Virus record (IMG/VR): IMGVR_UViG_3300029268_000088
Location: 1 to 31,259 of that record
DNA: 31,259 nt
DNA from: a virus
Reading direction: 5' to 3' (one strand)
Below are positions 10,435 to 31,259 of the stretch, in pieces. A program made the position numbers and the translations under genes. Every line of letters starts with the position of its first letter. Position 1 is the first letter of the stretch. The notes beneath the pieces were generated by a model. That model had not been told where the DNA came from. It did not search any database and saw only the letters and a list, made by a program, of their open reading frames with translations.

Positions 10435-10905
10435 CTATTCCTCTGTTGTTTCTTCAACTTCATCCGCATAAAGCGGCTCATAACGCAGGGCGTAGCCGTG
10501 CATCGCGCTGCCGTCCTGATACTGCAAGGGAACCATTCCCTTATAGACAGCCTGTGATACCAGGTCAGTAATGTCTTCCGTCCGGATCAACTTGCGAAGG
10601 GATGCTATCTTATCCAACACGGATATTGAATCTCTGCCGTCCCGTATCTTCAGCCCCTGCTTCTGTGCCACGCCGATCCGGATGTTCGGACGTAGAAGCG
10701 TATCTTCCAGGAATTCATCATTGGCGGGTTCATCACCGCCATAGAACAGGACAACCGCGCAGCCGTTAGTCTGTCCGGCTGAAAGTAGATCTATCGCATG
10801 CGCCGGATCATCCGCAACCGTGACGCGAGCGTTGTTATCAGCCGCCCACTTGGTACGGATAAGCTCTTCGTATGCGCTCAAAAGTTGTGAAGGTGTCATG
10901 TTCAT
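10435..10905 (-). CDS. probable tail terminator (Mu gp37-like)
   Basis: A 156-residue protein. Features include a central RPNIRIGVAQKQGLKIRDGRDSI stretch and a C-terminal beta strand region (MHGYALRYEPLYADE), resembling Mu gp37/DUF1834-like tail completion proteins, in which a conserved strand-turn is followed by 'Y.L.YEP'. Position after the connector and before the tube supports it. The start overlaps the stop of the upstream connector gene (ATGA). A second Met two codons later is an alternative start. Confidence 0.55.
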   Translation of the reverse strand: MNMTPSQLLSAYEELIRTKWAADNNARVTVADDPAHAIDLLSAGQTNGCAVVLFYGGDEPANDEFLEDTLLRPNIRIGVAQKQGLKIRDGRDSISVLDKIASLRKLIRTEDITDLVSQAVYKGMVPLQYQDGSAMHGYALRYEPLYADEVEETTEE

Positions 10906-11294
10906 GCCATCAGTCCTGTGGTTGGGGTCGCCGCGAGTTCGACAGTCTGGGCCTCACCGGCTCCGCTCGCCCCTGCGTCCGGGCGTTCAGCCCCGGATGA
11001 CAGGTTTGTCAGCCGCTTTTCAGCAGCGTTGGCTTGCGAAGAGAAAGGATTGGCCTTATCCGTGAACCCACGGCGACGGAAGAGGATCTCCAGGATAAAG
11101 ACCTTCAAGGCATAAGCCGCCGGTGCCGCGTATTCAGAAGGTGTCGCCCCGCCGAATGCGTTTGTCACGCGATCGGCTGCCGAGGCCTGCACCTGCGTCC
11201 ATGCCGCTTCATCTGCCGTGCCGTCTTTGTTGTCATCCAGCGCGTCAGTGATATCCGTCAGCGTCATCTCACCTTGAAGGTCTGTTATTTCCAT
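10902..11294 (-). CDS. probable head-tail connector (Mu gp36 / DUF1320-like)
   Basis: A 130-residue protein. Pattern: a short N-terminal TLTDITDALDD, then helices with AADRVTNAFGG and YALKVFILEILFRRRG, then NPFSSQANAAEKRLTNLSSG. This follows the layout of gp36/DUF1320-type connectors (N-terminal 'lT..DL', a helix listing residues that pack in the neck ring, and a conserved R-rich helix). It sits directly after the major head gene as in Mu. The C-terminal 30 residues are Ala/Gly/Thr-rich and likely disordered. Confidence 0.55.
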   Translation of the reverse strand: MEITDLQGEMTLTDITDALDDNKDGTADEAAWTQVQASAADRVTNAFGGATPSEYAAPAAYALKVFILEILFRRRGFTDKANPFSSQANAAEKRLTNLSSGAERPDAGASGAGEAQTVELAATPTTGLMA

Positions 11295-11309
11295 GGTTAT
11301 CCCCTTGGA

Positions 11310-12257
11310 CTATGCAACTGCTGCCCAAGCCGTCACGGCGATGCCGCCGCGATAGGCCAGGAACGGGAGCGTCAGGAATGCTTCGCCGCGAGCGTCTGTA
11401 CCATAGAGGTACTCATTGCGCATGAACACGTTCTCATCCGTGTCTTTGGCCATAGCCGTAAACACAGGCAACTTGCGCTGCTGGACGCATACCGGCTTGA
11501 TGCCAGCCTTCTCGGCGAGAATGAACCAGGCAGCCGCGTTATCGCCGACAAGGTTCTCATCCACGCGGACCTGCAGGCTCATAGCCGGGGAGACGTTGGA
11601 CACGCTCACCGCTCCGTCGCTGATCAGCGTCGCCTCGCAGATAGCCTTAGCCGTCGCTTCCAGGCTCGGGCCGACTACCAGGTACTTAGGCGTGACCTTT
11701 GCGGGCTGGTTGCCGTAGAGCATCCAGGAGCGCATGGTTGACAGGCCAGTTTCGACAGCGGCCTTCGACAGGGCCGTTGTAGCGCAGTTCGTGATGCTAA
11801 TGTTAAGATCAGCATTCAGAATGCGGCCTGTGCAGAAGAACTTATTCTGGTCCGCCCAGTTTCCGTTTGCCAGGAGAGCGGCGATCCCGAGTTCCTTCCA
11901 GAGTTCCTGCGCGGCGGCACCCATGGAGGACATCAAGGGCGAATAAACGCCGAAGTTATCATCTTCGATTGCCGTGCGGGGAACACCGATAGTGCTCTCG
12001 AAACTACGGTTTGTCACAGTGATCTCGCCGACGTTGAGGTTATTGATCTGGCGTTCGCCGATCCATTCCTTCATGCCCGGAACCTGGTTGAGCCATGCGT
12101 GAACAGTGGCTGCACCGGAAACGACCATCATCATGGCCAGCTCAGTAACGATAAGCTGGTTGACGTAAGCGCGTGTCATCGCGTTCGCCATCGCATCATT
12201 GAATCCAGTTTTGTACGTCTGGAAAAGGGATGCCAAACTTGCTGCATTGATAATCAT
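11310..12257 (-). CDS. T: major head protein, Mu gpT family
   Basis: A 315-residue major capsid protein. It matches Mu gpT along the N-terminal third: an N-terminal helix LFQTYKTGFNDAM, then VPGMKEWIGERQINNL, NRSFESTIGVPRTAIEDDN and FGVYSPLMSSMG, in the order known for the family (strand, 'lkEW.G.R', 'n+.fe.tigi.R..ieDD'). The family uses an HK97-like fold. Start at 12257 is chosen because it opens with the conserved short MIINAASL segment of gpT; a longer frame to 12314 would add a low-quality extension. The ribosome site (GAGAAAA) is weak for such an abundant protein. Confidence 0.93.
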   Translation of the reverse strand: MIINAASLASLFQTYKTGFNDAMANAMTRAYVNQLIVTELAMMMVVSGAATVHAWLNQVPGMKEWIGERQINNLNVGEITVTNRSFESTIGVPRTAIEDDNFGVYSPLMSSMGAAAQELWKELGIAALLANGNWADQNKFFCTGRILNADLNISITNCATTALSKAAVETGLSTMRSWMLYGNQPAKVTPKYLVVGPSLEATAKAICEATLISDGAVSVSNVSPAMSLQVRVDENLVGDNAAAWFILAEKAGIKPVCVQQRKLPVFTAMAKDTDENVFMRNEYLYGTDARGEAFLTLPFLAYRGGIAVTAWAAVA

Positions 12258-13253: not shown

Positions 13254-13276
13254 TTTAACTTTTTACTTTTTACTTA
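13254..13276. repeat. short-period repeat, family D (AAAAGTAAAAAGT type)
   Basis: TTTAACTTTTTACTTTTTACTT, reading on the minus strand as AAGTAAAAAGTAAAAAGTT. It overlaps the stop region of the scaffold gene and lies next to the family B copy. Confidence 0.6.
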
Positions 13277-13719
13277 CCTTTACCGTATACCTTCTCTGGA
13301 TCCTGACCGCAGGCCAGAGCAATCGCACGCTGTTCTTCCGTGATCGTACCGATAGCGCCTTCAGCCACATGGGCCGGAGTCTGGGCGCTCAAGGGAACCG
13401 TCACCGGCAATGCCGCGACATGCTGCTTCAGGGCGTCCAGCGAGAGCTGGCCGATAGCTTCAGCATTCAAAGCCACTACTTTGCCTTCGATCCGTGCCGA
13501 CAGAATGACCTGCTCTTTATCGCGCTTGGTCATCTCGGTGCGGAAACCTTCAATGCTTGCATTCAGCGGGGCTACCGCGTCATTGACAAGCTTTGCGACA
13601 TCCACGCTCAAAGGAGCGGGTGCTGCAGGGGCCTTCATGGCCGCTTCCAAAGCTTCCATGATCTGTTCGTCCGTTGCTTCCGGAGCGAGTTTGAGCATGG
13701 CAATCAGTTTATCTCTCAT
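13270..13719 (-). CDS. Z: capsid scaffold nested in the protease gene (Mu gpZ-like)
   Basis: Internal start at Met180 of the protease gene, in the same frame, giving 149 residues. An AAGGAA ribosome site lies seven to eight bases before this ATG, and the sequence before it (TNQNKEQ) is a polar linker. The product is helical and Ala/Glu/Lys-rich, the expected make-up of a scaffold. Mu and many other phages place their scaffold as the C-terminal part of the protease gene with its own start, so the same protein is made both fused to the protease and alone. Confidence 0.75.
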   Translation of the reverse strand: MRDKLIAMLKLAPEATDEQIMEALEAAMKAPAAPAPLSVDVAKLVNDAVAPLNASIEGFRTEMTKRDKEQVILSARIEGKVVALNAEAIGQLSLDALKQHVAALPVTVPLSAQTPAHVAEGAIGTITEEQRAIALACGQDPEKVYGKGK

Positions 13720-14256
13720 GAGTTGTTCCTTGTTTTGGTTAGTACTTACCAGCAATGCACTCAGAGGCACATCAACGAATTCCATTCCCGGCACCGCGCC
13801 GACGCGGCACAGCGCCACGCTGGTGATCCCCACTACGTTTCCCTGCTTATCGCACAGGGGCGTAGCTGATACGTCAGCATAGTTATGCGCCTTGTCGAGT
13901 CCGAGCGGAGTCCACGAATGAATCAGCATGTACACGCCATCCTTCGGCACAACTTCAAAGCCCACGTATCCGGCCACGTCACGCGGCTCTTTCGAATCCG
14001 CATAAGCCGTGGTGCCGGGCGTAGTGTTGTGTTCGAAGTCAAGCGGCACCTGGTTGAACGGGTAGACAGGACTCTTCATGTTCGAGAGCAGCATGTCGCC
14101 CACTACGACCTTTGCGCCCCGCGCATTCAGATTCTCGCCCCAGTTCAATACCTTCACGCGCTTCGGCAGTTTGCCAGCCTCTATCAGGCTTGGCATTGCC
14201 GCCGCGAGTGTGATGACGCATCCATTTTTCTGTGTCGCCCAGTGATTGCTTTTCAT
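13270..14256 (-). CDS. I: capsid maturation protease fused to scaffold (Mu gpI-like)
   Basis: A 328-residue protein. The N-terminal protease domain (about residues 1-165) carries the family marks: DFEHNTT with His76 as likely catalytic His, a GYVGFEVVPKDGVYMLIHSWT segment, YADVSATP with Ser130 as likely nucleophile, and VALCRVGAVPGME at the position of the family's 'alTN.Pa..g'. The C-terminal half is the scaffold, whose own start is at 13719. It cleaves scaffold during head maturation. The start at 14256 has no good Shine-Dalgarno site, and lies about 16 bases after the predicted start of a late transcript. Confidence 0.88.
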   Translation of the reverse strand: MKSNHWATQKNGCVITLAAAMPSLIEAGKLPKRVKVLNWGENLNARGAKVVVGDMLLSNMKSPVYPFNQVPLDFEHNTTPGTTAYADSKEPRDVAGYVGFEVVPKDGVYMLIHSWTPLGLDKAHNYADVSATPLCDKQGNVVGITSVALCRVGAVPGMEFVDVPLSALLVSTNQNKEQLMRDKLIAMLKLAPEATDEQIMEALEAAMKAPAAPAPLSVDVAKLVNDAVAPLNASIEGFRTEMTKRDKEQVILSARIEGKVVALNAEAIGQLSLDALKQHVAALPVTVPLSAQTPAHVAEGAIGTITEEQRAIALACGQDPEKVYGKGK

Positions 14257-14278
14257 GGCCGGAATATTATCTTAATCC

Positions 14279-14304
14279 GTTATATAGCGCGTGTGCGCGT
14301 GGGG
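14279..14304 (-). promoter_or_regulatory. putative late promoter for the head operon
   Basis: On the minus strand CCCCAC (14304-14299) is followed by 12 bases of alternating purine-pyrimidine GCGCACACGCGC (14298-14287) and TATATAAC with TATAAC at 14284-14279. The start of the motif lies 20 bases before the -10. No -35 sequence is seen. The same layout occurs before the rightward lysis-packaging genes at 26974-27000, with 21 bases between. Late promoters of Mu-like phages lack a good -35 and need an activator, which would bind the alternating block. Confidence 0.55.
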
Positions 14305-14316
14305 TCCATGGGGGAA

Positions 14317-14350
14317 GTTCTAAAGTTCTAAAATGCTAAAGTTCTAAAGT
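14317..14350. repeat. short-period repeat, family C, left arm
   Basis: Tandem GTTCTAAA-type units (period about 8). It forms an inverted repeat with the copy at 14387-14424 around the terminator hairpin. Confidence 0.7.
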
Positions 14351-14355
14351 AAAAT

Positions 14356-14386
14356 GAAAAAGCCGCGCCAACGAGTGGCAGCGGCT
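14356..14386 (-). terminator. rho-independent terminator flanked by inverted repeats
   Basis: On the minus strand AGCCGC (14386-14381) pairs with GCGGCT (14366-14361), with extra CC/GG pairs near a small loop, then TTTTT. It ends transcription from the gpG side before the protease promoter. The adjoining family C repeats would extend the structure. Confidence 0.65.
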
Positions 14387-14424
14387 AGAATTTTAGAACT
14401 CTCGAACTTTAGAACTTTAGAACT
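14387..14424. repeat. short-period repeat, family C, right arm (inverted)
   Basis: TTTAGAACTTTAGAAC-type units, inverse orientation to 14317-14350. On the minus strand it supplies the final Phe codon and TAA stop of the gpG gene (TTCTAA at 14422-14417). Confidence 0.7.
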
Positions 14425-14857
14425 GTTTCTTCAGATGGCCCTCCAAGACTTCCTTGATCGCCTTTTCAGCTGCAGGCAGCGCGGTCCCGTTGGCTGCTAT
14501 CGGAATGAAGGGACGCGCCGGTATGTTCTTATAACCGAAGTTCTGAGCATTCGCCTGGGGCCGGTCGCTGCCGATCTCGATCTGGTCGCTCTGCGGCGCA
14601 TTCGCCATCAGAGAGCGCATGAGAATGCCTTCATCCTTCAGCGGCTTGTCATGCCCCTTACGCTTGATCGTTGCAGCTGACAATGCTGGCCATGACGTCA
14701 TGCGCATGCGCATGCCTGGATTGTTGAACGACTGCTCGCCAATCCCGATGACAGCTTCAGCCGCAAGCTTCAGCAATGGCCGCTTATCCTTCATCTTATC
14801 CATTGCCCTACGCAAGTCCGGGCTGATCAAGTCGCGTATGTTTAGTTCAGCACTCAT
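14417..14857 (-). CDS. G: virion morphogenesis protein, Mu gpG-like
   Basis: A 146-residue protein matching the gpG / virion morphogenesis family: an N-terminal helical part, then SFNNPGMRMRMTSWPALSAATIKRKG with the W-x-x-L-x-x-x-T pattern, then a K/L..GILMRSL segment and a C-terminal IPARPFIPI, which is typical. The family acts in tail completion or head-tail joining. The start overlaps the stop of the small zinc-type gene upstream (TAATG at 14855-14859). The last codon and stop lie inside repeat family C, which suggests the repeat arose inside or replaced the original gene end. Confidence 0.85.
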   Translation of the reverse strand: MSAELNIRDLISPDLRRAMDKMKDKRPLLKLAAEAVIGIGEQSFNNPGMRMRMTSWPALSAATIKRKGHDKPLKDEGILMRSLMANAPQSDQIEIGSDRPQANAQNFGYKNIPARPFIPIAANGTALPAAEKAIKEVLEGHLKKQF

Positions 14858-17096: not shown

Positions 17097-17693
17097 TTAT
17101 CCCTTCCGTGCCTTTCCGCCTGCCCGCCGTAGCTTTAGCGAAGGTGGGTGTTTTCCGTGAGCAGTCGATGTTTTCTGTTTCTGCTTCCAGCCGCCGAGCC
17201 CGTTGACATGCAGGTAATTCTCGCGCTCTTCGCTGCCATCCTCCCACATCTGCGGATTATCCATGCACTCTGCCAGGTGCCGGAACCATGAATCAAGGTC
17301 GAGGATCCAGCAGCCAGGGGAAATCTTCACAAGTTCGATATGCCCTGCCCGTGAGAGCCGCATCATGGTTTCGTATTTCCGGTTTCGGTTCATGTCCCGG
17401 AGACCAAGCGCAGCGCACAGCTCCGAACAGAGCCGGTACCACCGCCCGCCTACCGGAACAAAGTTATAGGTCCCGTCCGGCTGCGGGGCGAACTTGCCGA
17501 CCTGCATAGCCGGAACCTCTGCCCCCCGCTTCGGGACGTATGCATTCTTATCCGGAGCGACCCGAAGCATGTCCGGCTTAGACAGTTCATGGAACCGCTT
17601 GGCTGCCTCTTCCGTCATCTGGCGGTTGCGCGGTTCTAAAACCAGAGCCGGACCCCCGAAAAGATCATGTTGAACTAATTTTTGTGCGTTCAT
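17097..17693 (-). CDS. putative DNA-binding regulator, candidate late activator
   Basis: A 198-residue protein, start at 17693 with AGGAG upstream. Residues of about 105-145 read as a winged helix/helix-turn-helix region: a helix with NRNRKYETMMRLSRAGHIE, then VKISPGCWILDLDSWFRHL, like excisionase- or Mor-type DNA-binding proteins. In Mu the late activators Mor and C follow gam and gemA; this gene has the same order here (Gam at 18615, GemA-like at 17716), so it is the best candidate activator of the late promoters at 14279 and 26974. The C-terminal tail (SLKLRRAGGKA) is coded by the composite repeat, so its end is probably not native. This is inference from place and helix pattern. Confidence 0.4.
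   Translation of the reverse strand: MNAQKLVQHDLFGGPALVLEPRNRQMTEEAAKRFHELSKPDMLRVAPDKNAYVPKRGAEVPAMQVGKFAPQPDGTYNFVPVGGRWYRLCSELCAALGLRDMNRNRKYETMMRLSRAGHIELVKISPGCWILDLDSWFRHLAECMDNPQMWEDGSEERENYLHVNGLGGWKQKQKTSTAHGKHPPSLKLRRAGGKARKG
17100..17158. repeat. composite short repeat, families F and G
   Basis: On the minus strand a CACGGAAAACACC segment, an inserted CTTCGCTAAAGCTACGGCGG block (family G), and GGAAAGGCACGGAAGGGA resembling family F. It encodes the last residues of the regulator gene and supplies the ribosome site of the next. Confidence 0.6.
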
Positions 17694-17715: not shown

Positions 17716-18330
17716 CTAGAACGGGCGGGGGGAACGGGGGGAAACGGGGGGTAAGCCATCGGACGCATCAACATGCGTTTTTTCTACACCCCCCCTTAAA
17801 TCGCATTTTAAAGCGGTTTCCGTCGATGCTGGCTTAGCTTGCTTTTTAGCCCTTGAGCGCAGGGTGAAGATTACCTGCCAGACCTGCTTAGCATTCGCAT
17901 CCGAAAGCTTCACCTTGTGGATCTTCTCCATCAGCGAATTGGCGTAACGCATGGCTCCCTCTTCGCCGCCGAAGGATGAACCAAGCTCTTTGCATTCTTC
18001 CTTAAGACGCCAGACCGCCCGGCGCACTTCGTCTGCAGACTGCTTGATTGAGCAATGCACCTGCACCGTGCGCTTGCCGGACAGCACAAAAAATCCGTCC
18101 AAAACCTTATTGAACTCCGTCTGGTTGATAGTCCGGAAGCTCGTCTTGCAGACAAGATCCCAGAGCGTCTGCTTCCGCCAGTCATCAAACTTCACATCCG
18201 TCAGCCCCAGCTCCGTCTGTTTCTTATGGGCTGCATTCGCCGCCAGAATCAATTCGCGTACCTGCTCGCGATTCAGGAAAAACGCTCCCTGTGCGACAAT
18301 CGCCTCTATATCCTTTCCCGCTTTACTCAT
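17716..18330 (-). CDS. possible GemA-like (Mu gp16) regulator
   Basis: A 204-residue protein, start at 18330 preceded by AAGGGA. The N-terminal two thirds is helical: FFLNREQVRELILAANAAHKK, LGLTDVKFDDWRKQTLWDLV and NQTEFNKVLDGFFVLSG. This pattern of a short DW segment followed by a helix with a conserved final hydrophobic pair recalls GemA/DUF1018 family proteins, which in Mu follow Gam; the likeness is weak. The C-terminus contains a Pro/Ser-rich stretch from a run of C (PPVSPRSPRPF), which overlaps a G-quadruplex motif on the other strand. Confidence 0.4.
   Translation of the reverse strand: MSKAGKDIEAIVAQGAFFLNREQVRELILAANAAHKKQTELGLTDVKFDDWRKQTLWDLVCKTSFRTINQTEFNKVLDGFFVLSGKRTVQVHCSIKQSADEVRRAVWRLKEECKELGSSFGGEEGAMRYANSLMEKIHKVKLSDANAKQVWQVIFTLRSRAKKQAKPASTETALKCDLRGGVEKTHVDASDGLPPVSPRSPRPF
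17723..17751 (+). other. G-quadruplex motif inside a gene end
   Basis: Plus strand runs G3 (17723-17725), G6 (17727-17732), G6 (17736-17741), G6 (17746-17751) with loops of one, three and four bases, a canonical intramolecular quadruplex. It lies on the template strand of the minus gene. Confidence 0.6.
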
Positions 18331-18408
18331 AGTATCAGTCCCTTCTTTCAACGTCTCACTTTAAAAATCCCCCCGGACTCGTCGCCGCCGGGAGTGTCGG
18401 CGGTGTGG

Positions 18409-25474: not shown

Positions 25475-25696
25475 TCAGCAGCCCAGCGCCTCTTTTACAT
25501 CACTTACGATGCGTTTAGAGAGTGGGCCGTTAAGCTTGCCCTGCATCGCATACCAGGCAGTACTCTTAGGCCATCCGCGTGACACGACGAATTTAAGGAG
25601 CGACCCATGACCGAGACGCATAGCCGAGATACGTGCTTCAATAATGTTGATGGGGGCGTGCTTCATTTTTTTTGGGGCTCTATGAATTGTGTTCAT
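25475..25696 (-). CDS. Ner/Cro-like DNA-binding regulator
   Basis: A 73-residue protein with a helix-turn-helix (GSLLKFVVSRGWPKSTAWYAMQ, then LSKRIVSDVKEALGC), resembling the small Ner/Cro proteins found first in the early operon of Mu-like phages. The promoter at 25704-25732 would start transcription at about 25697, so the ATG at 25696 gives a nearly leaderless message; a second Met at 25666 gives a leader of about 30 bases. Neither start has a strong ribosome site. It is divergent from the repressor gene. Confidence 0.65.
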   Translation of the reverse strand: MNTIHRAPKKMKHAPINIIEARISAMRLGHGSLLKFVVSRGWPKSTAWYAMQGKLNGPLSKRIVSDVKEALGC

Positions 25697-25703
25697 GGCG
25701 TGT

Positions 25704-25732
25704 ATCTTATTAAGAGGGCTTAATAATGTCAA
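25704..25732 (-). promoter_or_regulatory. early promoter with operator in its spacer
   Basis: On the minus strand TTGACA (25732-25727), 17-base spacer, TAAGAT (25709-25704): a near-ideal sigma-70 promoter driving the early operon. The operator palindrome at 25707-25726 falls in the spacer and overlaps the -10, so a bound repressor would block it. Confidence 0.75.
25707..25726. promoter_or_regulatory. operator O1 (perfect 20-bp palindrome)
   Basis: TTATTAAG-AGGG-CTTAATAA, eight-base arms with a four-base centre. It covers the spacer and part of the -10 of the early promoter and the first base of the repressor start codon. Its 16-base core matches O2 with two changes in the centre. Confidence 0.8.
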
Positions 25733-26154
25733 TAACAAAATTAAGAGAACTTAATAAATTTTCTGATAGGCTTATTTTCCTGCGCGGAAAAAGGTCTAAA
25801 GCTGAATTTGCTAGGGAAATAGGTGTTTCTCAACCTCTTTATCACCAATGGGAAAACGGTGCAATACCGACCTATGATAAAGCACTCTTAATAGCAAAGG
25901 CGTGTAATGTTCCGGTAGACGTGCTGCTAACTGGACATAATGCAATGCACACGCTAACAGTTACACATCAGACAAACCGGACCGGGATAATAAGCTCAGA
26001 AGTCAAGGATGCTGGCGAGCCATACGGAACTTCTCAATGCGAAAACTGCGTGCTTCTGAAATCAAAACTTTCTGCCATGCAGGATCTGCTGGACAGGGCA
26101 AATGCATCCCTTGATATTTTCATCAAACACGAAAGAGAGAAGGCTAAGAAATGA
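25726..26154 (+). CDS. XRE-family phage repressor
   Basis: A 142-residue protein with an XRE helix-turn-helix at about residues 10-65 (RLIFLRGKRSKAEFAREIGVSQPLYHQWENGAIPTYDKALLIAKAC). No S24 peptidase domain follows, so it is not an SOS-cleaved LexA-type repressor; the C-terminal part is a helix (LSAMQDLLDRANASLDIFIKHERE) suited to dimerisation, with a Cys pair (CENC). GAGGG upstream gives the ribosome site, within operator O1, which suggests autoregulation. It starts the rightward transcript and is coupled to the membrane protein (ATGA). Confidence 0.85.
   Translation: MSITKLRELNKFSDRLIFLRGKRSKAEFAREIGVSQPLYHQWENGAIPTYDKALLIAKACNVPVDVLLTGHNAMHTLTVTHQTNRTGIISSEVKDAGEPYGTSQCENCVLLKSKLSAMQDLLDRANASLDIFIKHEREKAKK
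25740..25755. promoter_or_regulatory. operator O2
   Basis: ATTAAG-AGAA-CTTAAT, six-base arms, inside the first codons of the repressor gene. Its centre is 31 bases (three helical turns) from that of O1, so two repressor dimers could bind on the same face and cooperate. Confidence 0.75.
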
Positions 26155-26870: not shown

Positions 26871-26895
26871 TTTAAAGTACATATAACACGACCCG

Positions 26896-26928
26896 AGCCG
26901 TTCACCTTAACCGGTGAGCGGCTTTTTT
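26896..26928 (+). terminator. rho-independent terminator after the repressor operon
   Basis: AGCCGTTCACC (26896-26906) pairs with GGTGAGCGGC (26913-26922), one G-U pair, then six T. It closes the repressor transcript and separates it from the late genes. Confidence 0.8.
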
Positions 26929-26960
26929 CTTTGTGTTTTTTGTGTTCTTTGTGGTTAAAC
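26929..26960. repeat. short-period repeat, family A
   Basis: CTTTGTGTTTTTTGTGTTCTTTGTGG then TTAAAC. It follows directly after the terminator, and here no gene on its strand starts after it, so a ribosome-site role does not apply to this copy. Confidence 0.75.
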
Positions 26961-26973
26961 ATTAGGGCACCAT

Positions 26974-27000
26974 CCCCACACACACGCGCACGTTTATAAT
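26974..27000 (+). promoter_or_regulatory. putative late promoter for the lysis-packaging operon
   Basis: CCCCAC (26974-26979), 12 alternating purine-pyrimidine bases ACACACGCGCAC (26980-26991), three bases, then a perfect TATAAT -10 at 26995-27000. No -35 element is seen. The same layout stands before the head operon on the other strand (14304-14279). Intergenic location after a terminator and before the first late gene supports it. Confidence 0.55.
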
Positions 27001-27043
27001 GAATATGCCATGATGCGGCCTCATTCATAAGAGACCGACTCCC

Positions 27044-27100
27044 GGCGGCGGGTGGTGAAGCAATCCAGTCCTTTCGTTGATGATCCACCCGCCGCCTTTT
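27044..27100 (+). promoter_or_regulatory. long leader hairpin before the lysis-packaging genes
   Basis: GGCGGCGGGTGG (27044-27055) and CCACCCGCCGCC (27085-27096) are perfect 12-base inverted arms with a 29-base loop, followed by TTTT. In the message it would form a very stable stem just after the predicted start of transcription and 18 bases before the first ATG. It could be an attenuator, an antitermination target or a stabilising leader. Confidence 0.55.
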
Positions 27101-27114
27101 AGAAAGGCAACATC

Positions 27115-27477
27115 ATGGATACAGCGACAACGATCATATCAGGCCTCGTGACCATCGGCGCGGCATTCGCGACATGGCTCGTCTCTAAGCGCCGCGAGGC
27201 AAATAAGCAGCAATCCGAAAAGAACGCCCTTACACAAGCCGTCTATTCCGGCGATAAAGACGCACTTAATAAGCATCTTCGTAATTCGCTCTGCATCGGT
27301 TTCGCATTGCTATTTCTAGCCGGTTGCACGACGGCCCCTGTCTACGTTCCAGCCGACCGCGAGGTTTATCCGATGGTCAGCACCAACAACGTGCCGGGCT
27401 GGTTCGTTCCGAACGCGGTCATGGATGACATCTGCCGTAAGCTCTACGATGTCAAGTATGGCGAGGCTTCAAAGTGA
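27115..27477 (+). CDS. membrane protein with internal lipobox, possible spanin or holin-like protein
   Basis: A 120-residue protein. Residues 6-23 form one membrane segment (IISGLVTIGAAFATWLV), followed by a polar region. At about 57-72 a second hydrophobic stretch ends in a lipobox (LLFLAGC), followed by TTAPVYVPADREVYP, a Pro-rich tail like Rz1-type outer-membrane spanin lipoproteins. It may be a fusion of a membrane protein and an Rz1-like lipoprotein, or use an unseen internal start. AAAGG upstream gives its ribosome site. It is the first gene of the late rightward operon, so a role in lysis is likely. Confidence 0.5.
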   Translation: MDTATTIISGLVTIGAAFATWLVSKRREANKQQSEKNALTQAVYSGDKDALNKHLRNSLCIGFALLFLAGCTTAPVYVPADREVYPMVSTNNVPGWFVPNAVMDDICRKLYDVKYGEASK

Positions 27478-27862: not shown

Positions 27863-28297
27863 ATGGAAACAGAAACTCTCACAGTCGGCGCAAGTGCTGG
27901 AATACTATCAGCAATCGGAGCTTGGCTTGCAATGTACCTGAAAACCCGTGTCACACAGAAGGTTGACGTGCAATCCCAGCCGCCGACACGTCTTGAGCCG
28001 AATCCCCTGGAGGTGCGCCTTGTTGATAAGTTTGTAACGCTAGAAGAGTTCACCGCCTTAAAGCAAAAGAATAGCAGCGCTCACATTGATCTGTTTGCAA
28101 AGGTAAGTGACTTTGTTCCCAAGAAAGATTTTGAAGCTCATGCCCTGGAGGATCGTGGAGACCACGCCGAATTATTCCAGACGCTTCGAGCGCATGAAGC
28201 CAGAGACGCAGACAACCGAGCCGGTATCAGCCAGCAGCTTGGCAACATTGACGGAAAGCTTGAACTGATTATTGCAACGATGAAAGGACATAAGTAA
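27863..28297 (+). CDS. membrane-anchored coiled-coil protein
   Basis: A 144-residue protein with an N-terminal membrane segment (ILSAIGAWLAMYLKT) and a long helical part (residues 60-140) with heptad character, including QQLGNIDGKLELIIATM. This layout recalls the short anchored coiled-coil proteins (DUF2730-type) that precede the small terminase in Mu-like phages. A weak AAGG site precedes the start. The stop TAA overlaps the next start (TAATG). Confidence 0.6.
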   Translation: METETLTVGASAGILSAIGAWLAMYLKTRVTQKVDVQSQPPTRLEPNPLEVRLVDKFVTLEEFTALKQKNSSAHIDLFAKVSDFVPKKDFEAHALEDRGDHAELFQTLRAHEARDADNRAGISQQLGNIDGKLELIIATMKGHK

Positions 28298-28566
28298 TGA
28301 ACCCACGTACAGTCATTCTTGCATTCCTGGCCGGACGCTCTCCGGCAGCCTACAGCGAAGAGGCTATCAAAACTCGGGTTACTGCCAGCGGACTTCTGGA
28401 CGCTACGCCCACCTCGGTCAACAGTGAGCTTTCCTATCTCGCCTCTGATCGCATGGGCAAGCTTGTTGCAGTCGATGTAAACCCCGCATCCATGGAAGCC
28501 GTATGGTACGCTACACCCGAAGGCGTAAGCCGCTGGGTTCGGGACGGCCGTCTGCACGTCGGTTAA
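28297..28566 (+). CDS. small winged-helix-like protein
   Basis: An 89-residue protein with a winged-helix pattern: SEEAIKTRVTASGLLDATPTSVNSELSYLASDRMGKLVAVDV, where the middle helix pair and beta-wing match, and a C-terminal ATPEGVSRWVRDG. It may bind DNA next to the small terminase. In Mu-like phages a small protein occupies this place, between DUF2730-type and DUF3486 genes. Start by TAATG overlap. Confidence 0.55.
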   Translation: MNPRTVILAFLAGRSPAAYSEEAIKTRVTASGLLDATPTSVNSELSYLASDRMGKLVAVDVNPASMEAVWYATPEGVSRWVRDGRLHVG

Positions 28567-28574
28567 GGAGCACC

Positions 28575-29210
28575 ATGAATACACGCTACTACAGATCAAA
28601 GATTGGCCGCCTTCCTTTCGCCATCCGCAACGAACTGAACGAACGGATCAGGGACGGCGAGAAGGGCAGCGACATTCTCGCCTGGTTGAATACGACCAAG
28701 GAATTCAAAGCCGTCGTGAAGTCCGAGAAGTGCGGCCCCCTGATCCCCCAGAATCTGACAGACTGGCGGGATACCGGTTATGCCGACTGGCTCACGGATC
28801 AGGGCGAAGCCGACCGCCTGCGCCGCGTCACAGAAAGCACGATGACTCTGATCCAGGCCACCGGCGGCGACCCGTCTACCGTAGCCGCCCGGATGGCAGC
28901 CGCCTCGCTGATCGACGCGGTGACGCAATCCGAAAGCCCCGAAGCCCTGAACAACGCCGCCCGTTCAATCGCTGCCCTCCGCAATGCCGAGCTATCCCAT
29001 GAGAAGAACCAGCTTAGCCGGGAGAAGCTGGCCATGGACGGCCAGACCCTGGAACTCGCCAAAGCCAAATTCCGGCGCGAGACCTGCGGACTCTTCTTGA
29101 AGTGGCAGGGCAACAAGGCCGCCCAGGCCATTGCCAAAGGCCCCGGCACAAACGATGACAAGATTCAAAAACTCCTCGCCTTCATGGACAAGGAAGAACA
29201 AGCGACATGA
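28575..29210 (+). CDS. small terminase-like protein (Mu gp27 / DUF3486)
   Basis: A 211-residue protein, start at 28575 with AAGGAG five bases upstream. The N-terminus reads RSKIGRLPFAIRNELNERIRDGEKGSDILAWLN, matching the 'lP..v+..l...l..g....iL..lN' helix-turn-helix of DUF3486. The C-terminal part is helical and Ala-rich. In Mu-like phages this gene directly precedes the large terminase; here a methyltransferase stands between them. It is thought to recognise the packaging start. Confidence 0.8.
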   Translation: MNTRYYRSKIGRLPFAIRNELNERIRDGEKGSDILAWLNTTKEFKAVVKSEKCGPLIPQNLTDWRDTGYADWLTDQGEADRLRRVTESTMTLIQATGGDPSTVAARMAAASLIDAVTQSESPEALNNAARSIAALRNAELSHEKNQLSREKLAMDGQTLELAKAKFRRETCGLFLKWQGNKAAQAIAKGPGTNDDKIQKLLAFMDKEEQAT

Positions 29211-29986
29211 ACGAACTCCCCAAACCATTCTACCAGTCTGACCGCGTAACCATCTATAACGCGGACTGCCTGGCCGTGCTTGCGTCCATGCCGGACAAGT
29301 GCGCGGATATGTTTTTCACAGACCCGCCTTATGGCCACAACAACAACAACAACGGTGACCTGATCGCAAATCGGGAAAAGGCTTTAGGCCAAAAGAAGGT
29401 TGCCGATGTGGCGCGTCCGATATTAAATGACGGCGAAGAAGCGGACGGAATTTTCTTGCTTTTTCTATATCGCGCTAAAAGAATTTTGAAAGATAGCTGC
29501 TGCTGCTGCTGCTGCTGCTGCGGCGGCGGCGGCCCAGATCCGATGTTCGCCCGGTGGTCGCTGGCCATGGATAGAGTCATGACGTTCAGGCAGCAGGTCG
29601 TATGGGACAAGGGGCCTATCGGGATGGGCTGGCAATATCGGCGGTCTACCGAGTGCGTGCTGGTTGCGACAAAGGGAAAGAAGAGCATGCGCTTTTTTGA
29701 TGACTCGCATAAGATTGAAAACATCATCCGGCCCGGCATGCACGGCATTAAAAAGATTATCCCCTCAAAGCGCCAGCACCCGACAGAAAAACCCGTCGCC
29801 CTTCCGGCGTTCTTTATCCGTTTACACTCGCAACCAGGGGAAACCGTAGTTGACCCGTTTATGGGGCATGGTTCAACAGGCTCGGCATGTCTTAAGCTGG
29901 GCCGTAAGTTCATCGGTATTGAGCTGGATAGCGACCACTGCCAGAAGGCAGCCGAGCGTTTGCAGAAAGAAGAGGCCGCCCTATGA
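29207..29986 (+). CDS. site-specific DNA methyltransferase with poly-Cys/Gly motif
   Basis: A 259-residue adenine- or cytosine-N4-type methyltransferase. DPPY lies at 39-42 (catalytic motif IV) and VVDPFMGHGSTG at about 214-225 (motif I, binding S-adenosylmethionine). The order DPPY first, FxGxGxT last, marks the beta class. Residues 98-109 are eight Cys then four Gly (CCCCCCCCGGGG), coded by (TGC)8(GGC)4; I recall similar Cys-Gly runs in other phage methyltransferases, so this may be conserved. A run of five Asn follows DPPY. ATGA overlaps with both neighbours. It probably protects phage DNA from restriction. Confidence 0.88.
   Translation: MNELPKPFYQSDRVTIYNADCLAVLASMPDKCADMFFTDPPYGHNNNNNGDLIANREKALGQKKVADVARPILNDGEEADGIFLLFLYRAKRILKDSCCCCCCCCGGGGPDPMFARWSLAMDRVMTFRQQVVWDKGPIGMGWQYRRSTECVLVATKGKKSMRFFDDSHKIENIIRPGMHGIKKIIPSKRQHPTEKPVALPAFFIRLHSQPGETVVDPFMGHGSTGSACLKLGRKFIGIELDSDHCQKAAERLQKEEAAL
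29498..29533 (+). repeat. trinucleotide microsatellite (TGC)8(GGC)4
   Basis: Pure trinucleotide tract inside the methyltransferase gene, coding Cys8-Gly4. It can slip, but in-frame changes alter only length of the run. Confidence 0.8.
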
Positions 29987-31259
29987 CCCTAGCCCCCTAC
30001 CAGAAAGAGCTGATCATGACAGGCCGCGACTACGGCATGCTGCTGATGCTCTGGCGCCGTCAGGGACGCAAGACTACCACGTTCGCCTGGCAGGCGCTGC
30101 GCTGGATGCTGGAGCATCCCGGCTGCCTCGTGACCTTCAGCACCTGCGCCCTGGCATTGGGCGCTGAGTTGACGGAGCGCGAGGTTCAAATGCTGATGAC
30201 CATCATTGACACGATCAAGAGCGAGTCGAATGCAGCCATTCAGGTAGAGACCGAAGCCGATAAACTCCCCTGGTATGATGTCGCCGACCTCTTCACCCGT
30301 AACCGCTTGGAGGTCACGATCCACCACGACCGCACCACGCGCAGCCGTACCAAGATCATCGCCGCAAACTATGCCACCGCGCGCGGTTATTCCGGTTATG
30401 TCCTCCTGGACGAAATAGGCTTCATCCGGGACTTCAAGCTTTTCTTTGAAGCCGTTGAACCGATCTTTTCTTCTAACCCCGCGTACCGTCTCTGGATGGC
30501 GACCACGCCGCCGGAAGATGACGCCCACTTTTCTTACGAGCTTTCTGCGTATCCTCCCGGACGTGAGTTCATTGCCAACCCCCGAGGCAACTGGTATTCA
30601 AACGACAGCGGCCTGCCCGTGCACCGCGTATCCGCCCAGGATGCAGACCTTGCCGGCGTAAGGCTCTATGATCCAAAGTCCCGTCAAGTCGTATCCCCCG
30701 AACAGCACCGCGCCAAAGCCCTGGACAAGACGGCATGGGACCGCAACTATGGATTGATCTTCACCCAAGGCGGCATCAGTGCCGTTCAGTTACTGCCACT
30801 GTCACAGGCGCAAGCAGCTGGATACGAGCTTGGCTGCCGGTACTATTGCGATGACCTCCCCTCTATATGGTCCGAGAATCTGGATCCCCGTTATGAGACC
30901 ACCGTGGGAGCCGATCCGGCCACCACCGAAAAAGAGAAGTCCAATCCTTTCGGCGTGGCAGTAGACCAACTCATTAACGGCAAGCATGTCGGCAAGATGT
31001 TCCTGCGCTTCCGTTCCTCCGATCCGGTCAAGTGCCGTATGATGCTCAAGCAGATATGCCTGGATGTCAAGGCCACCGGATCAAAGCTCCGGTGCCTGAA
31101 CATTGACGCGACCTCCGAACGCTTCTGGGCAGCCGAAACCCGGACGGCAATCCAGGAGCAAGGCATCTGCCCCGTCAACCTGATTGTATCCTCCGAGACT
31201 GTAGAGCACCTGAACGAAACAATGACGTTCAAGACCTACCTCGGCAACATCGCCATTAA
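29983..31259 (+). CDS. large terminase subunit (Mu gp28-like), partial
   Basis: At least 425 residues, open at the window end. A Walker A variant RRQGRKTT lies at 25-32, Walker B YVLLDE at 139-144, an ATTP motif III at about 173-176, and a nuclease domain with Asp311 (GADPAT) and Asp375 (LNIDATSE). It cuts and packages phage DNA into heads. The start overlaps the methyltransferase stop (ATGA). In Mu the portal gene gp29 would follow; it is not in this window. The remaining C-terminus is missing, so the full length is unknown. Confidence 0.9.
   Translation, partial: MTLAPYQKELIMTGRDYGMLLMLWRRQGRKTTTFAWQALRWMLEHPGCLVTFSTCALALGAELTEREVQMLMTIIDTIKSESNAAIQVETEADKLPWYDVADLFTRNRLEVTIHHDRTTRSRTKIIAANYATARGYSGYVLLDEIGFIRDFKLFFEAVEPIFSSNPAYRLWMATTPPEDDAHFSYELSAYPPGREFIANPRGNWYSNDSGLPVHRVSAQDADLAGVRLYDPKSRQVVSPEQHRAKALDKTAWDRNYGLIFTQGGISAVQLLPLSQAQAAGYELGCRYYCDDLPSIWSENLDPRYETTVGADPATTEKEKSNPFGVAVDQLINGKHVGKMFLRFRSSDPVKCRMMLKQICLDVKATGSKLRCLNIDATSERFWAAETRTAIQEQGICPVNLIVSSETVEHLNETMTFKTYLGNIAI

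Follow-up and report, generated by a model that had tools for sequence, protein, structure and literature searches.

Predicted late promoters with a shared direct-repeat operator on opposite strands of a Mu-like phage

The two late gene arms of the virus IMGVR_UViG_3300029268_000088 lie on opposite strands, and each is preceded by a copy of one sequence element. We consider it probable that these two sites are activator-dependent late promoters of a single regulon, with an operator of about 26 bp and a -10 hexamer 33 nt from the core of the middle repeat. This reading draws on computed features (the elements, their conserved placement, the match within each phage, the 9-bp period, the distance to the -10 and the position of the start codon), from which we infer activator binding and co-activation. 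Most simply, the shared element would act through a phage activator. A phage protein encoded in the early operon would bind about three 9-bp direct repeats head to tail, on an operator that would reach into the place of the -35, and would recruit host RNA polymerase at both sites, where a weak sigma70-type -10 would lie exactly 33 nt downstream of the CCAC core of the middle repeat. Recruitment at both sites would turn on the two divergent late arms together. The layout is class II-like for a sigma70 promoter, with the operator at a fixed distance from the -10 (at about half of the sites) and the -35 absent.

Two sites between terminators and late arms

The window (the whole 31,259-nt stretch of this record) belongs to a Mu-like phage, as indicated by Pfam matches to the I protease (PF10123), Mu-F (PF04233), gpT (PF10124, the major head protein) and Gam (PF07352), and it also encodes a MuB-like AAA ATPase and a transposase-like protein. 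From about 25.7 kb downward, the minus strand carries early genes, transposase, MuB, Gam, a gene at 17716-18351 in the gemA position, the gene at 17097-17693, F and G; after G come a terminator and then I, T and the tail genes. The plus strand carries an HTH repressor-like gene (25726), a gene at 26151, a terminator, and the genes from 27115 onward, which include TerS, a DNA methylase and TerL. Both shared sites are located exactly between a terminator and a late arm, with a terminator-like hairpin upstream of each (14387-14357 on the minus strand and 26893-26930 on the plus strand). A search of Rfam gave no match anywhere in the window. The features used below are as follows.

13270..14256, minus: Mu-I-like protease/scaffold gene, first of the minus late arm (PF10123, 2.6e-18; phrog_328, head maturation protease)
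14264..14269, minus: predicted -10, TAATAT, +33..+38 from the core (family -10 at +33, start codon at +45/46)
14279..14284, minus: TATAAC, the -10 of the initial annotation, which falls in the spacer in the family register
14289..14315, minus: predicted late operator with 9-bp direct repeats, CCAT-N5-CCAC-N5-CACG, CCAC core C0 at 14302
14357..14387, minus: intrinsic-terminator-like hairpin and T-run that ends the upstream (G) unit (-16.9 kcal/mol, z -3.7, 51-nt segment)
17097..17693, minus: candidate late activator, a winged-helix protein of the early operon, between the gemA-position gene and Mu-F
26893..26930, plus: intrinsic terminator that ends the repressor/26151 unit (-23.5 kcal/mol, z -6.0, 51-nt segment)
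26963..26989, plus: predicted late operator, GCAC-N5-CCAC-N5-CGCG, C0 at 26976, including CCCCAC
26995..27000, plus: TATAAT, the -10 of the initial annotation, in the spacer in the family register
27009..27014, plus: predicted -10, CATGAT, +33..+38 from the core (family -10 at +33)
27044..27096, plus: long hairpin in the predicted 5' leader, a 12-bp perfect stem followed by TTTT (86-nt segment, -31.5 kcal/mol, z -2.6)
27863..28297, plus: membrane/coiled-coil protein, whose look-alikes (judged by eye) are the first gene past the plus element in relatives
28503..31257, plus: packaging genes of the plus arm, TerS, DNA methylase and TerL (open at the record end)

The initial annotation had described the two sites as CCCCAC followed by alternating purine-pyrimidine bases (CA/CG) and TATAAY, and had proposed that they co-activate two late arms from opposite strands. 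Both sequences are as described: the minus site at 14304-14279 reads CCCCACGCGCACACGCGC-TA-TATAAC, with 20 nt from the motif start to TATAAC, and the plus site at 26974-27000 reads CCCCACACACACGCGCAC-GTT-TATAAT, with 21 nt to TATAAT. The minus copy precedes the Mu-I protease and the plus copy the packaging arm, nothing resembling TTGACA lies 16-18 nt from TATAAY, and a scan of the window for weaker copies found no third. The pattern CCCCAC-(RC)6-N2/3-TATAAY has exactly two matches in the window and none in 100 dinucleotide shuffles or 300 third-order Markov sequences, counts that overstate the case since the pattern itself was derived from the two sites. C(A/G) tracts of at least seven units were expected 0.003 times per window and seen twice. 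Plain alignment of the two regions was not significant; a transition-tolerant alignment confined to the two gaps between genes gave the pair as its best result, with 3 of 1,000 shuffles reaching that score. The minus operator (14289..14315) includes the CCCCAC of the earlier description and most of its alternating tract.

Other sequence features were seen around these regions. Repeats GTTCTAAA/TTTAGAAC in inverted orientation, at 14317-14348 and 14399-14423, flank the terminator before the minus late promoter. While the late sites are without a -35, the early promoter region (about 25690-25760, minus strand) has TTGACA and a -10-like box, together with two copies of a palindromic TTAAG..CTCTTAA sequence that are probably repressor operators.

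A predicted promoter architecture shared with distant relatives

Searches with single proteins (transposase and I protease) found no close relatives among viral contigs, genomes or named phages. Relatives were collected via TerL (12, later 21 viral loci, plus 14 genome loci); the named TerL loci were from Verrucomicrobiota and Kiritimatiellaeota, and I proteases were then located in those records. The genome of the cultured Geminisphaera colitermitum TAV2 has three I genes of this kind. The set compared consists of 24 distant genomes, a record count larger than the independent sample, as G022 is a duplicate of G014 and some viral records belong to prophages within genomes that are listed as well. 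In L056, the relative nearest by TerL (63-70%), the genes farther upstream are unrelated, and the element is absent.

The literal motif of the window was not found in other viral contigs; nonetheless, an element is kept in kind before the same operons. In most of the 24 relatives, the packaging arm and the region before I have a phage-specific element in common, which stands on the late strand (for example, CTCCCCACGCGCCCCACGG in G014, CCACCACGAGCCCCAC in G016, TTTCAGTTCTTYCACGCC in G020 and GCCACAGTGGCCACGCTAATTTGCGTGG in G004), in line with the proposal that late promoters on opposite strands are co-activated through one shared element. Alignment of the region upstream of I with the packaging arm exceeded shuffles in most of the 24 genomes, with scores of 20-41 in nine, and control upstream regions of other genes mostly scored 10-18, with exceptions in G023, G007 and G004 and at a duplicated gene in G006. 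No clear pair was found in several relatives (G018 in the plus arm, G019 and G005). The element differs strongly between phages and matches within one phage, a pattern to be expected if a phage-encoded protein binds it and diverges along with it. Several relatives carry extra copies, all on the late strand. In G003, G014 and G023 one such copy precedes a tail-module gene that looks alike in the three, and in G014 and G023 another lies before a small gene, again alike, upstream of G; these resemblances were assessed by eye, and the alignment scores of the weaker copies come close to noise. A third copy in G015 is exact over 25 nt.

Across the family, the element spans about 26 bp and mostly consists of direct repeats, two or three in number, that recur every 9 bp and have the core CCAC. 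Autocorrelation gave a single clear peak at lag 9 (z 6.1 for the I sites, 5.1 for the plus sites). The two copies within a phage agree from -12 to +13 around the CCAC core and are near background outside it. Beyond the operator, A34 and T38 recur, which are the key bases A2 and T6 of a -10 hexamer at +33..+38. A hexamer of this kind (cATnnT; A2/T6) lies exactly 33 nt from the core at 19 of 36 sites, compared with 3.8% at other offsets (binomial P 5e-18); the distance from operator to -10 is sharp to 1 bp. The repeat anchors of the relatives had been set by eye at a time when the +33 peak had not yet been noticed, and the two that were later moved by one base are left out of this P value. Excluding the window, the -10 at +33 was present at 8 of 16 I sites and 9 of 18 other sites, each significant separately.

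Both window sites carry a -10 at +33, and it is there, rather than at TATAAY, that the family places it. The starts at about 14272 and 27007 proposed in the initial annotation are accordingly displaced: the +33 register predicts the minus start at 14257/14256, on the ATG of the I protease gene, and the plus start near 27021. Nor did the alternating CA/CG block hold as the operator, since relatives have mostly C-rich 9-bp direct repeats and the alternation is peculiar to the window phage. We regard as unlikely a promoter whose operator is the alternating purine-pyrimidine block and whose -10 is TATAAY, 20-21 nt away from the start of the motif. Block and TATAAY do occur at both window sites, a combination unexpected by chance; however, the alternation is found in no relative, there is no family -10 signal at +18 or +19, and the two sites disagree by 1 nt in the spacing of TATAAY but agree exactly in that of the +33 hexamer. 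Closer relatives could still show that TATAAY matters in the window phage.

A promoter model trained on other phages alone, with zero window sequence, picked 14302 (minus) as the top position of its gap (8.7, next 3.0) and 26976 (plus) as that of its own (8.3, next 3.8), although the two rank 7 and 9 of 62,404 positions rather than 1 and 2, and dinucleotide-shuffled gaps reached these scores in 26 of 2,000 (minus, 8.7) and 139 of 2,000 (plus, 8.3) cases. The window sites are among the weaker matches to the family model, and the window is an outlying member. The model also found sites in other loci with an ORF start at +46/47. A model of the repeats without the -10 worked for G012, G014 and G023 and was set aside; it ranked the I site of the window just fourth and left the plus site unranked.

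The I start codon lies at +45/46 at 13 of 19 I sites, including the window (+46), and the first genes of the plus arms in relatives start mostly at +44 to +49. With initiation about 7 nt past the -10 and a start codon at about +46, late messages are predicted to be leaderless, and judging from these positions many late mRNAs should be so, including the protease mRNA of the window. The plus promoter of the window departs from this pattern: its first gene starts at 27115, and its leader contains the strong hairpin at 27044..27096, a possible attenuator. GGGCATG blocks in the plus arms are not start codons alone: some are, and some overlap the -10 block.

Such hairpins bear on Q-like antitermination, in which an antiterminator would be loaded through the shared element, the promoter itself being constitutive and a terminator following a short way downstream. 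Inspection by eye shows the element as the 5' side of a hairpin with a T-run in several plus arms, and the plus leader of the window has a hairpin and TTTT. Hairpins are absent, though, at many copies, among them the I site of the window, where no terminator follows shortly downstream and the start codon is at +46. Moreover, the shared sequence is the 5' half and not the hairpin, the absence of a -35 makes an unaided promoter unlikely, and start codons at about +46 in most cases leave no space for a leader terminator. We find this mechanism very improbable. Even less credence goes to an alternative sigma factor of phage or host that would read the C-rich block as a -35-like element with no activator: the element does overlap the -35 position at a fixed distance from the -10, but some 26 bp of 9-bp repeats that diverge between phages yet match within a phage are unlike a sigma box, the -10 resembles that of sigma70, and no sigma factor was recognised among the scanned proteins (a subset of the genes). 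The least probable reading is a Z-DNA or supercoiling-sensitive element, in which CG/CA alternation would act via DNA structure without a specific protein; alternating tracts of 14 and 16 bp occur at the two sites, but a third 16-bp tract lies at 14699 inside a coding gene and the corresponding sites in relatives lack such tracts. That third tract (14699-14714, CATGCGCATGCGCATG) is within the G gene and equals the plus-site tract in length.

The candidate activator and known systems

The protein encoded at 17097-17693 is the most likely activator, with a chance of about one half. The initial annotation had named this protein, and its standing as a plausible DNA-binding protein is upheld indirectly by homologues and fold, whereas a co-variation test did not single it out. 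Of 17 relatives, 16 have a homologue, in most cases a short way ahead of F, and no Pfam or PHROG family covers the gene. The predicted structure contains a confident winged helix (residues 82-163). For the model of a shorter homologue from a relative, the top structural match was Pukovnik Xis (Foldseek probability 0.97, Z 5.4, 56/56 residues), followed by BldC-DNA complexes (Z 4.7, 2.3 A), modest matches with no E below 0.001 that could reflect a common fold. Divergence of the operator was correlated with that of the candidate (r 0.36) no better than with that of T, G or transposase, and therefore gives the candidate no particular support.

The C site of Mu is dyad-symmetric, and in most of the relatives we found direct repeats at lag 9 instead (the G015 element is palindromic-looking). 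In Mu, activator C drives lys, I, P and mom from the late promoters Plys, PI, PP and Pmom (PMC4461284). The window phage is likewise transposable, and its predicted regulon has several late promoters with one activator site, one of them before gene I and one before lysis, as in Mu. Both systems combine a non-consensus -10 with an activator site at or upstream of the -35, and the extra late-strand copies in relatives resemble the multi-promoter C regulon of Mu, although the window itself has no third copy. Unlike in Mu, the operator here consists of 9-bp direct repeats that vary between phages, the late arms are divergent, and late mRNAs are predicted to be leaderless. The Mor/C domain (PF08765) had no match in the window or in 15 relatives, whose records may be fragments.

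BldC of Streptomyces, a MerR-like winged helix-turn-helix (wHTH) protein, binds its direct repeats head to tail, each 9-bp unit taking up one protomer (PMC5859096). The operators here have the same 9-bp period, which was detected before the comparison with BldC was made. The BldC repeat, by contrast, is AT-rich (AATTXXXXC), and BldC is a cellular developmental regulator (PMC5859096); the candidate, about 8% identical in sequence, carries an additional beta portion at its N terminus. Excisionases and recombination directionality factors (RDFs) were also compared, namely Pukovnik Xis, P2 Cox and 186 Apl (PMC7498355) and RdfS (PMC11963761). As is predicted for the candidate, these are small wHTH proteins of mobile elements; they bind DNA cooperatively, several of them on direct repeats, and some regulate transcription. 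They differ in that their repeats are about 10-11 bp apart; moreover, the window phage carries transposition genes (the MuB-like ATPase), and the sites are predicted promoters, not attachment sites.

A broader scenario, to which we assign somewhat less than an even chance, is that in a Mu-like lineage of Verrucomicrobiota a wHTH protein of the Xis/BldC type has replaced Mor/C and fires both late arms and tail promoters, with leaderless messages and diversifying operators. For the transposable phages of Verrucomicrobiota and their relatives, this would be a late-gene switch where a literature search found none described; it would also give a function to a protein family without annotation and predict, for dozens of phages, the positions of promoters and translation starts. 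A 9-bp direct-repeat operator at a fixed distance from the -10 makes a concrete promoter grammar that experiments can test, and if late phage messages are leaderless, as predicted, the way in which these hosts translate them becomes a question.

Minor observations concern packaging-arm genes. The DNA methylase gene of the window contains (TGC)8(GGC)4 at 29498-29533, encoding eight Cys then four Gly. The packaging arm of G006 has a second virion-morphogenesis (G-like) gene (L008:5508-5954) that looks like a recent duplicate. In the Geminisphaera TAV2 prophage (L005, about 10802-12119), TerL is split by about 1.3 kb with stop codons, an intron-like arrangement with no Rfam match.
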